Under the pieces are notes generated by a model, which was not told the origin of the DNA, did no database searches, and was given only the letters and a program-made list of their open reading frames with translations. Both the position numbers and the translations under genes were made by a program. DNA of 64,000 bases from Nocardia gamkensis NBRC 108242 (lineage in GTDB: Bacteria; Actinomycetota; Actinomycetes; Mycobacteriales; Mycobacteriaceae): positions 62,001 through 126,000 of the forward strand of contig NZ_BDBM01000021.1 of assembly GCF_001612985.1 (NCBI RefSeq), written 5' to 3'. Below, one piece after another: positions 6,982 to 62,555 of this stretch (its first letter is position 1; each line of letters begins with the position of its first letter).

Positions 6982-7391
6982 GCGTTCTCCTTAGATCGTG
7001 CTGCTGTGCTTGGTGTTCTGTACCCATACGGCGAGGTGATGCACGCCGGCCAGGAATTTGCTGATCCATGGTGCGATGGCGGCGACGATCAGCCCCCGCA
7101 CAAACCATGACCGTCCCGGCGGTACCGGAAATCGGCGAACTCGTGACCTGGGTCATAGAACCGAGCCAAACTACCCGACATCGACATTCCGAGACCAACC
7201 GAGCCGTGGTGTTGCCGCTTCAACCATTCTTAGAAGATCGCAGCTCGAGCAGCGTTGTGGAGGATTCGTATGTTCTGTTCACGCCCCTGGGGCAACCGGG
7301 TCGCGGCAGGTGGTTTGCCCGCCACACCACCGGGCACCCCGCAATCGACAGGCAAACCCGCAACGCCATACCCCCAGAAAGCGTTGAGCTG
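6982..7391. other. Divergent intergenic region, 410 bp
   Basis: This gap separates the permease and SRPBCC genes, which diverge. An open frame runs upstream of the SRPBCC start, but its codons are Arg/Ser/Thr-rich and lack family features, so I treat it as non-coding. No riboswitch or strong repeat is visible. Confidence 0.5.
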
Positions 7392-59277: not shown

Positions 59278-60195
59278 TCAGCTTCCGATCGTGAAGCAGG
59301 TACGGCAGAAGTCCTCGCCGAACTCGGACAGCCGGAGACTCTTGCGCACGATCTTCGGCGCCCGGCCCGCCTTCTTCAGCGCCGCCTCCACCACGGGCTG
59401 CACCTCGAGCACCATGTACCGGCTCAGCACCACCGGATCGTCCGAGGTCAGCGTCAGCCCGAGGCGATTGAGATTGATCAGGTAGGACCGCGCGCGGTCG
59501 GGGTAGCGCACGCCGGCCTGCTCGGGCACCGAGGTGAGATCGCCCTGCACCAGTTCCGAGCCGATCCCCAGCGGCCGGTTGGTGCGCACGTCGACCGCGG
59601 GCTGCGGGCCGTTGAGCGCCATGAAGCGCAGGATGCGCGCCTCGTCGGGAGCGAGTTCGTCGAGGATGCGGTCGTAGGCCGGGTGCACGTCCTCGGTGAA
59701 GTAGACGTCGGCGGACCTGGCCAGCAGCGCGTCGCCACGGCGGCGCAACTCCTCGGTGCTCGCCGAGCGCAGGTAGGGGCCGACGGTCAGCGGCTGCTGC
59801 GAGGTGGGGCCGTTGGAGGTCGGGACGTAGCTGACGATCTCCCGGACCGAGCCCTCGGTGACGCCCAGAGCGCTGCGGGCGATGGAACGCAACGCGTTTC
59901 CGGTCCGCTCGGCGATCTCGGCCGAGGACTCCCCGTCCAGCGCGGCCTGGGTGATCTCCCTGGTGACCTCGTAGGTCGTGCCGACCGCCCATTGGCTTCC
60001 GCGCACGACGGTGCCCGCGGCCACTCCTGCCGCGCGGAACACGCCGCGGATCAGCCGTGCCTCATTGCTGATCTGCCGCTGTTCGACATCCGAACTGCGC
60101 TCGACGGCGCGGGAACCTGGCCGGGCCACGTCCTGTCCGGTCCTGTCGTCTGCCACGTTTTCTCCGATATCGCCGGGGGAACGAATCCGCTCCAC
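59278..60195 (-). CDS. Abi-alpha family protein, copy 1
   Basis: This 305-residue protein resembles the Abi-alpha (DUF4393) family. An Arg/Asp-rich start (1-45) is followed by an amphipathic/hydrophobic stretch (about 50-90), then the block at about 179-255 with ELAPDEARILRFMALNGPQP, VDVRTNRPLGIGSE and YLINLNRLGL. The tail FGEDFCRTCF ends the protein. It is homologous along its length to the gene at 61662-62555. It diverges from the DUF445 gene with a 153-bp gap. Abi-alpha proteins are linked to abortive infection by name; the mechanism is unestablished. Confidence 0.8.
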   Translation of the reverse strand: MERIRSPGDIGENVADDRTGQDVARPGSRAVERSSDVEQRQISNEARLIRGVFRAAGVAAGTVVRGSQWAVGTTYEVTREITQAALDGESSAEIAERTGNALRSIARSALGVTEGSVREIVSYVPTSNGPTSQQPLTVGPYLRSASTEELRRRGDALLARSADVYFTEDVHPAYDRILDELAPDEARILRFMALNGPQPAVDVRTNRPLGIGSELVQGDLTSVPEQAGVRYPDRARSYLINLNRLGLTLTSDDPVVLSRYMVLEVQPVVEAALKKAGRAPKIVRKSLRLSEFGEDFCRTCFTIGS

Positions 60196-60348
60196 AGATT
60201 ACTTCCCCTTGTGTCGCGGGTCATTCGCACCGCCTGACTCGGACAGTGCGACCGGCACGCGGCGCGCAATAGGGTTTCTTCGAGGAGGGGGTGCTAGTTT
60301 TGGGTGCCGGTGAGGCGGCGAGCACCGGTGTATCGGCAGGAGGGTGTC

Positions 60349-61671
60349 GTGTTAGAGAGCGTATTCGGAATCCACCCCACGATCCTCCTCGAGCTCGTGA
60401 CCATACCGCTTTTCACCGGCGTGATCGGCTACATCACCAACTGGACCGGCGTGCTCATGCTGTTCAAGCCGGTCGCCTTCCACGGGGTCCGAGTTCCCGG
60501 CCTGCGCGCGCTGTATCCATTCCTGCCCAAGCGAATTCAGGTCCTCCCGCTGCTCAGCTATGACGGCCGGTTCGGGTGGCAGGGCATCGTCCCGTCGCGC
60601 GCCGACAAGATGGCGAGCATCGCGGTCGACAAGGGCCTGGCCAAACTGGGCAGCGTAGCCGACTTCTACCGGGAGCTCGAGCCGGACAAGCTGGCCGAGC
60701 ATCTCACCAGCATCGCCGACGCGCAGATCAAGGACATCGTCGAGGACATCCTGCGCCGCGAACATCCGCAGCTCTGGTACAACCTGCCCGCCCAGGTGCG
60801 CGACATGGTGCATGCCAGGGTACGCCAGCAGCTGCCGGAGATCCTGCGTGAGCTGACCGAGGAATTGGGCGCGAATATCGATCAGCTGCTCGATGTGAAG
60901 CAGATGGTGATCCGCTACTTCCAGGCCCGGCCGCATCTGCTCAACACGCTGTTCCAAGTGCTCGGCGCGAAGGAACTGCGATTCATGCAGAACTTCGGTT
61001 TCTACTTCGGCGCGCCGATGGGCGTGCTGCTGGTCGCCGTCCTGCATCTGAGCGGCTGGTCCAGCCTGGTCGTGCTGCCGATCGGCGGTGTGATCATCGG
61101 CTGGGTGGTCAACTGGATCGGCATCAATATGATCTTCGCGCCCGCATATCCGAAGTGGTGGGTCCCGTGGCGGCAGGGCCTGCTGATCAAACGCAAGGGC
61201 GAAATCACCGACGGATACGCGGAATTGGTTTCCAGCCAGGTGATCACCGTGGCGAATATCGGCGACGAGTTGCTCAACGGCCCGCGTTCGGATCGCACCA
61301 TGCAGATGCTGGAGGACACGCTGCGCCCGGCCGCCGACCGCGCGCTCGGCCCCGCGCGTCCTGCGGTCAAGTTCATGCTCGGCAGCCGCGAATACGACTC
61401 GCTGCAATCGACCTTCACCAACGAAGCCATGTCCATCGCGCCGATCGCGTTCGCGGACCCGGAGTTCAATGTCCGCCAGGGCAGGCAGATCAACGAATAC
61501 ATCGCCAGGCAGATGGCGATGTTGTCGCCGCCGGACTTCGTCGACATGCTTCGCGCGGCCATCAAACAGGATGAATGGCTCCTTTTCGTCCATGGCGGCG
61601 TGCTGGGGCTCTTCGCCGGATACGCTCATATCCTGATCTTCGGAACGGGAGTGGCGACATCATGGCTGTAG
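60349..61671 (+). CDS. DUF445 family membrane protein
   Basis: This 440-residue protein starts at GTG 60349 with AGGAGG five bases upstream. It has hydrophobic segments at the N-terminus (ITNWTGVLMLFKP, a DUF445 hallmark), in the middle (GVLLVAVLHLSGW, VIIGWVVNWIGINMIFAP) and at the C-terminus. A long helical cytoplasmic region with PDKLAEHL and VRDMVHARVRQQLPEIL lies between. The NWxGxxM motif occurs twice, so it is an internally duplicated topology. DUF445 function is unknown. It overlaps the next Abi-alpha gene by 10 bp, so the two are co-translated. Confidence 0.85.
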   Translation: MLESVFGIHPTILLELVTIPLFTGVIGYITNWTGVLMLFKPVAFHGVRVPGLRALYPFLPKRIQVLPLLSYDGRFGWQGIVPSRADKMASIAVDKGLAKLGSVADFYRELEPDKLAEHLTSIADAQIKDIVEDILRREHPQLWYNLPAQVRDMVHARVRQQLPEILRELTEELGANIDQLLDVKQMVIRYFQARPHLLNTLFQVLGAKELRFMQNFGFYFGAPMGVLLVAVLHLSGWSSLVVLPIGGVIIGWVVNWIGINMIFAPAYPKWWVPWRQGLLIKRKGEITDGYAELVSSQVITVANIGDELLNGPRSDRTMQMLEDTLRPAADRALGPARPAVKFMLGSREYDSLQSTFTNEAMSIAPIAFADPEFNVRQGRQINEYIARQMAMLSPPDFVDMLRAAIKQDEWLLFVHGGVLGLFAGYAHILIFGTGVATSWL

Positions 61672-62555
61672 CGAGTCCGGACGACGGCGATCTCGAGGCC
61701 GTCGAGCACCTCGACGCGACGGCGGCGAATGCCGGGCCATCGCAGGAGATCGCCCGACGGCCGGCTTCGGACATCGCTCACACCGACGAATTACCGAGAC
61801 GGGTCACGGTTCCCGTGGCCACCGTGCGTGCCGCGACGGGCGTCGCACGGGTCGCGTGGACCGCCGTCACCGGGGTGACCTCCTGGGGAGTCGGCACCGC
61901 GGTCGACGTCACCTCGACCGTCGTGCGGCGCAGCATCGAGGGAGCGCCGCCGCGAGAAGTGCTGGCCGAGGCGGAGTCCGAAGTCCGTGACGCGATGCGC
62001 AAAGCGCTCGGTCTGTCCGCCGCCGCGCAACCGTCCGCGCAGGACGCCGTGCCGACGCTGCGCGAGCAAGGCGCCGCGCTGCTGCGGTTGTCGGCGAGCC
62101 CGCACGGCGAGGACGACAACCATCCGGCCTTCGCGGGCATGCTCGCCGAGCTGACCCCCGACGAGGCGCGCATCCTGCGTTTTCTGCACCTGGACGGGCC
62201 GCAGCCCTCGATCGACATCCGCACCGGACGCCCGCGCGCGCTCGGCTCCGAACGCCTCGGCTCGATGCTCACCCTGATCGGCGAGCACGCCGGCCTGCGC
62301 TTTCCCAACCGGATCCAGCAGTACCTGACCAACCTGCGCAGACTGGGCTTGGTCGAGCACGCGCGCGAGCCGGTCGGCAATCCGAACCGGTATCAGCTGC
62401 TGGAGGCGCAGTCACCGGTGCGGGAGATGCTGAAGCGGTCCGGCTTCGGCACCAAGGTGATCTACCGCAGCGTGGTGCTCACCGACTTCGGCGCGGATTT
62501 CGTGCGCACCTGCCTGCCCGTGGTGGTGCAGGACGGACGCGCCTCGGGGCACTAG
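61662..62555 (+). CDS. Abi-alpha family protein, copy 2
   Basis: This 297-residue paralogue of the product of 59278-60195 has a disordered start, an amphipathic stretch at about 55-95, and the block at 162-240 with ELTPDEARILRFLHLDGPQP, IDIRTGRPRALGSE and YLTNLRRLGLV. It ends near TDFGADFVRTCLP. ATG 61662 lies inside the DUF445 stop region (10-bp overlap), which points to a fixed protein ratio. Its last 4 bp meet the convergent TetR gene. Confidence 0.82.
   Translation: MAVASPDDGDLEAVEHLDATAANAGPSQEIARRPASDIAHTDELPRRVTVPVATVRAATGVARVAWTAVTGVTSWGVGTAVDVTSTVVRRSIEGAPPREVLAEAESEVRDAMRKALGLSAAAQPSAQDAVPTLREQGAALLRLSASPHGEDDNHPAFAGMLAELTPDEARILRFLHLDGPQPSIDIRTGRPRALGSERLGSMLTLIGEHAGLRFPNRIQQYLTNLRRLGLVEHAREPVGNPNRYQLLEAQSPVREMLKRSGFGTKVIYRSVVLTDFGADFVRTCLPVVVQDGRASGH

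Follow-up and report, generated by a model that had tools for sequence, protein, structure and literature searches.

Our analysis of a 64,000-nt stretch of the Nocardia gamkensis NBRC 108242 genome (here termed the window), together with related loci from other bacteria, leads us to favour the view that an Abi_alpha gene and an adjoining DUF445 gene form a conserved, undescribed two-gene membrane module that is vertically inherited and probably stress-related, and of which Nocardia carries a reduced double copy. We regard it as close to certain that the pair is a real functional unit. Genome comparison further shows it to be inherited as such, to be chromosomal and fixed within clades and, in several lineages, to be linked with heat-shock genes. 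Our literature search found no account of a DUF445–Abi_alpha pair.

In N. gamkensis the locus occupies positions 59278–62555, with one Abi_alpha gene (AbiA) divergent from DUF445 and a second (AbiB) on the same strand as DUF445. Its features, numbered as in the window, are as follows.

59278..60156, minus strand: AbiA, an Abi_alpha protein (PF14337) of 292 aa; Pfam 1.2e-39, with the start and a GGAG site kept in Nocardia
60157..60348, no strand assigned: divergent intergenic region between AbiA and DUF445, from the alignment of 21 Nocardia intergenic regions
60197–60202, minus strand: putative −10-like element of AbiA, TAATCT, a promoter reading by pattern only
60292–60300: putative extended −10-like element of DUF445, TGCTAGTTT, likewise a promoter reading by pattern only
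60307–60328: inverted repeat CCGGTG-N10-CACCGG, just 5′ of the DUF445 ribosome site and kept in most Nocardia
60349..61671, plus strand: DUF445 (PF04286) membrane protein of 440 aa with four transmembrane (TM) helices; Pfam 7.5e-14, in three stretches
61662..62555, plus strand: AbiB, an Abi_alpha protein (PF14337) of 297 aa; Pfam 1.7e-43, with an AlphaFold2 model

The start codons were set by codon and ribosome-site conservation across 21 Nocardia sequences, which places that of AbiA at GTG 60156 rather than 60195 and that of DUF445 at GTG 60349 rather than 60304; a longer AbiA ORF reaching 60195 is possible, but the conserved start is the GTG at 60156. The initial annotation had described two Abi_alpha paralogues flanking DUF445, one divergent and the other overlapping it by 10 bp, and Pfam, alignment and stop and start positions all agree with this. 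The DUF445 stop codon (TAG, 61669–61671) lies beyond the AbiB ATG at 61662, the two Abi proteins score 136.8 and 149.3 bits over their C-terminal domain (cut-off 29), and the DUF445 protein scores 52.8 bits (curated cut-off 33.8). AbiA and AbiB share 35% identity over 284 residues (E 1e-52), making them paralogues, and both contain the PDEARILRF...GPQP...RP...GSE block just as it had been described. They are the only Abi_alpha genes in the genome. In many Nocardia (L065–L084) the AbiA–DUF445 intergenic region also keeps a block resembling TGTGAC-GA-TCTC, possibly a regulator site.

The three-gene arrangement is far from chance. Both Abi_alpha copies were present in 75 of 76 Nocardia genomes over two surveys, on opposite strands and about 2.7–3.1 kb apart; the exception (G055), in which one copy was found, is an assembly of 1,340 contigs. 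In all 20 Nocardia loci that were fetched, the order AbiA–DUF445–AbiB was retained at one and the same locus, with a conserved left flank of a SnoaL-like gene and prfC, usually joined by rplY and pth. The TetR and SDR genes on the right were rejected as parts of the system, being seen in just four of these 20 loci. Median identity to the N. gamkensis proteins was 87% for AbiA, 86% for DUF445 and 65% for AbiB, compared with 91.5% for prfC and 79% for rplY, whilst dN/dS was 0.12, 0.14 and 0.36 for the three triad genes and 0.11 and 0.40 for the two neighbours. The triad locus is core and inherited vertically, and strong purifying selection acts on it; the slow evolution of AbiA and DUF445 nearly equals that of prfC next to them. 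Compared with its neighbours prfC and pth, AbiB changes faster, and rplY of the same locus has a ratio similar to that of AbiB. Additionally, we observed in Nocardia a second DUF445 gene of the same subfamily without Abi_alpha (L249, 6200–7555; L250, 6224–7684; L251, 6524–7879) and, in a few genomes, an extra DUF445–Abi_alpha pair elsewhere (L085–L087).

Beyond Nocardia it is the pair that recurs. Nearly every Abi_alpha gene examined there adjoins DUF445, nearly always on the same strand, at loci unrelated to one another and with either gene first. Amongst 87 further fetched loci (80 genome-contig loci and seven annotated records), the two genes were adjacent in 78, spanning Actinomycetota, Chloroflexi-labelled MAGs and Marinobacter; as a Marinobacter plasmid bears the pair, it is not confined to Actinomycetota. 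On this Marinobacter adhaerens plasmid (L233, 5956–7177) an intact Abi-alpha gene is followed by a DUF445 gene split into two annotated genes, either by a frameshift or by decay. The nine unpaired loci comprised four contig ends, one locus where an amino-acid permease separates DUF445 from Abi_alpha, two DUF445 genes lacking an Abi_alpha partner and two solo Abi_alpha genes, on a conjugative-type Pseudoalteromonas plasmid and in Streptococcus phage Javan149. An apparent DUF445–Abi_alpha fusion in Nocardioides TF02-7 (L215, 4558–6843) was dismissed as a frameshift artefact, as the frame leaves DUF445 before the junction; this frameshift and an internal TGA in a draft-genome DUF445 gene (G112:C142:2995-4266) are probably sequencing errors.

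Genome-wide counts gave the same picture. Amongst 301 genomes of the family, Abi_alpha was detected in 74 and the Abi-linked DUF445 profile (A4) in 75, with all 74 shared (Fisher p 2e-70, a value that ignores kinship), and several genera hold both pair-positive and pair-negative species. A PF04286 match of any kind was found in 299 of these 301 genomes, so that the link of Abi_alpha is with a DUF445 subfamily. In a sample of 296 genomes from the phylum, nine of the ten with an Abi_alpha match above the cut-off also had this DUF445; in the tenth, Abi_alpha was a fragment at the end of a contig and DUF445 gave no match. Two more genomes had sub-threshold Abi_alpha matches only. The pair has a patchy distribution in the phylum (about 3–4% of genomes), and most clades checked hold the pair at one fixed locus. 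The initial annotation had noted that its proposal would fail if the genes did not co-occur elsewhere; they do, as a pair. Distances in the partner trees correlate (r 0.95 over 137 pairs), and at two-pair loci the paralogues of the partners match in 46 of 46 comparisons; because linked genes are expected to agree, this is read as joint inheritance and not as contact.

The trees also bear on the origin of the triad. Nocardia AbiA groups with the Abi_alpha genes that lie beside SnoaL-prfC in other genera, which usually own a DUF445 gene from a different clade than that of Nocardia, and the DUF445 of Nocardia clusters with those that accompany AbiB-type genes. These groupings show the triad to be a double pair that lost AbiA's own DUF445, a Nocardia-specific reduction of two ordinary pairs in which AbiA was kept under strong constraint. 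In two other genomes (L097 and L105) AbiA is likewise solo and the other DUF445 is present within the same locus, which suggests that AbiA may be able to use that DUF445. One DUF445 would serve two Abi_alpha paralogues in Nocardia, with the slowly evolving AbiA as core partner and the faster AbiB as a second, diverging one.

With regard to genomic context, heat-shock genes (dnaK-grpE-dnaJ-hspR and/or clpB) were found in the fetched flanks of 39 of 45 pair loci from Propionibacteriales. The cluster in this order of bacteria reads dnaK-grpE-dnaJ-hspR-[DUF445-Abi_alpha]-clpB; the linkage lies mostly in this one lineage and hence represents few independent events. The pair was seen between hspR and clpB at L166 (44–9590), where the genes share one direction all the way from dnaK to clpB, and at L171, L173, L179, L185, L187, L194, L208, L216, L227 and others. 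HspR-type boxes (CTTGAGT-N7-ACTCAAG) are located 5′ of dnaK and clpB, not directly before DUF445, and the N. gamkensis window contains neither an HspR (HAIR) nor a CIRCE box. The Abi-less DUF445 paralogue of Nocardia adjoins lon or sits within 6 kb of it. In Tsukamurella, a DUF445 gene (L235, 5947–7320) was observed directly upstream of groES-groEL, with a CIRCE-like repeat at 7346.

Enrichment near defence genes, which the initial annotation had proposed to survey, was not found. A Pfam scan of 128 genes around diverse pairs returned ordinary neighbours (metabolic enzymes, transporters, regulators and universal stress proteins); restriction, CRISPR, integrase and transposase families were absent from the top 25 Pfam families, and PADLOC matches at 1e-10 were few and scattered. 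Three scans of 2.9 million viral contigs detected neither the pair nor either protein, and the matches in a phage collection were confined to a single solo Abi_alpha and to some DUF445 relatives from Acinetobacter; the latter were rejected as paired, since the adjoining 172-aa gene is not Abi_alpha.

These data have to be set against the history of the family. Its founder, ef2833 of prophage 6 in E. faecalis V583, causes premature lysis on infection and blocks phage Idefix (PMC6356687), and AbiAlpha is listed in the defence-annotation table of a Rhodococcus genome (PMC12915292). Both Nocardia proteins belong to the same Pfam family as the founder (AbiAlpha, DUF4393, PF14337), well above the cut-off, and both match the PADLOC candidate PDC-S47 at 1e-12 to 1e-17; this is a candidate defence model without DUF445, and the DUF445 protein does not match it. 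A chromosomal anti-phage system, in which phage perturbation of the membrane is sensed by DUF445, which then frees Abi_alpha to permeabilise the membrane or hasten lysis, would resemble the mechanism proposed for E. faecalis Abi-alpha. Such a reading is possible, especially for AbiB, which at a dN/dS of 0.36 outpaces prfC and pth as an immune protein might. On the whole, however, we consider it unlikely, given its universal, syntenic presence in Nocardia, the constraint on AbiA and DUF445, the lack of defence or mobility enrichment around the pair and of any viral contig carrying it, and the solo state of two of the mobile members found (a phage and a plasmid). The founder belongs to a prophage, and the members from the Streptococcus phage and the Pseudoalteromonas plasmid are likewise solo, whereas actinobacterial Abi_alpha is paired with DUF445 and chromosomally fixed, and the N. 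gamkensis locus is core chromosomal, paired and absent from viral contigs. Unlike defence islands or mobile systems, with their patchy spread and defence or mobility neighbours, this locus is universal in Nocardia and its neighbours are ordinary. Of the earlier proposal of a sensor/effector defence at the membrane, one part is supported, namely that the genes belong together in a membrane-associated unit, whilst the core locus, purifying selection and ordinary neighbours speak against defence. The housekeeping module offered as its alternative, being core, vertical, constrained and heat-shock-linked, fits better, and the main role of the pair is probably cellular rather than anti-phage.

The DUF445 partner also differs from other members of its family. 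E. coli YjiN and B. subtilis YheB belong to the same family (PF04286). The protein described here has the membrane motif in common with the family and scores above the Pfam cut-off, but, unlike canonical DUF445, its subfamily is found almost only in Abi_alpha genomes and has the membrane motif twice; canonical DUF445, which is ubiquitous, is encoded separately in the same genome. Its AlphaFold2 model (pLDDT 89.5, pTM 0.82) comprises four TM helices and two large helical lobes, with an internal duplication of a motif of the G-x2-TNW-x-G-x2-MLF type. As the lobes account for all positive charge counted in the non-TM parts, they are probably cytoplasmic. Comparison with solved folds gave a best Z of 5.6 over 79 residues, which is not meaningful.

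For AbiB, AlphaFold2 predicts a disordered N-terminus, an Ala-, Gly- and Val-rich helix of 41 residues (53–93), a further two helices and, with confidence, a winged-helix domain (~155–285). The only solved relative found for this domain was 3H35 (Z 14.6, E 8e-4), the uncharacterised protein ABO_0056 of Alcanivorax borkumensis, which resembles the Abi_alpha domain; TubR (Z 9.2) and MarR folds matched at Z 8–9 over 70–94 residues, which is a resemblance of fold. The MarR/TubR-like fold and the conserved inverted repeat 5′ of DUF445 in Nocardia might together suggest linkage without a joint complex, with Abi_alpha acting as a winged-helix protein that regulates the DUF445 gene beside it. We hold this to be improbable: across the family the winged-helix domain lacks a basic character (median net charge −2), which speaks against DNA binding, and a long hydrophobic helix is unusual in a repressor. 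Moreover, the repeat at 60307–60328 is not specific to the DUF445 promoter; with 16 genome sites at ≤1 mismatch (one in the reversed control), it was rejected as a DUF445-specific operator, and as an RNA hairpin it was no better than shuffles.

The long hydrophobic, small-residue helix of Abi_alpha, together with gene overlap and strict pairing, could instead point to a toxin-antitoxin-like pair in which a membrane-active Abi_alpha toxin is restrained by DUF445. Against this, DUF445 is the larger and more conserved partner, unlike the usual small cytosolic antitoxin, and in Nocardia also occurs alone near lon; AbiA persists without its own DUF445, and there is no addiction-like mobility. We therefore give this explanation very little weight.

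Returning to the module that we favour, DUF445 would act as an inner-membrane scaffold of four TM helices, bearing two helical lobes on the cytoplasmic side, and Abi_alpha would be its cytosolic partner, the long Ala/Gly/Val-rich helix perhaps lying against the membrane or DUF445, and the non-basic winged-helix possibly serving protein–protein contact rather than DNA binding. From gene linkage only, we infer that the two proteins may be in physical contact. The likeliest role would be to maintain the membrane or membrane proteins during stress, such as heat or misfolding. This specific mechanism, with DUF445 as scaffold and Abi_alpha as adaptor, is put forward tentatively, as somewhat less than an even chance. 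Rather more doubtful is the idea that Abi_alpha was by origin the winged-helix partner of DUF445 in a DnaK/HspR/ClpB-linked membrane stress or quality module, and was later recruited alone by prophages as a lysis trigger.

Annotation pipelines label these genes as abortive-infection defence, and if they form a core stress or membrane module, many such 'defence' calls in actinobacteria would be wrong. The dnaK-hspR-clpB context predicts heat induction of the pair and heat sensitivity of mutants. Furthermore, the pairing provides the family's phage-defence founder with a plausible ancestor in the cell and a plausible target, the membrane. If our reading is true, two uncharacterised families would gain one shared, testable function.
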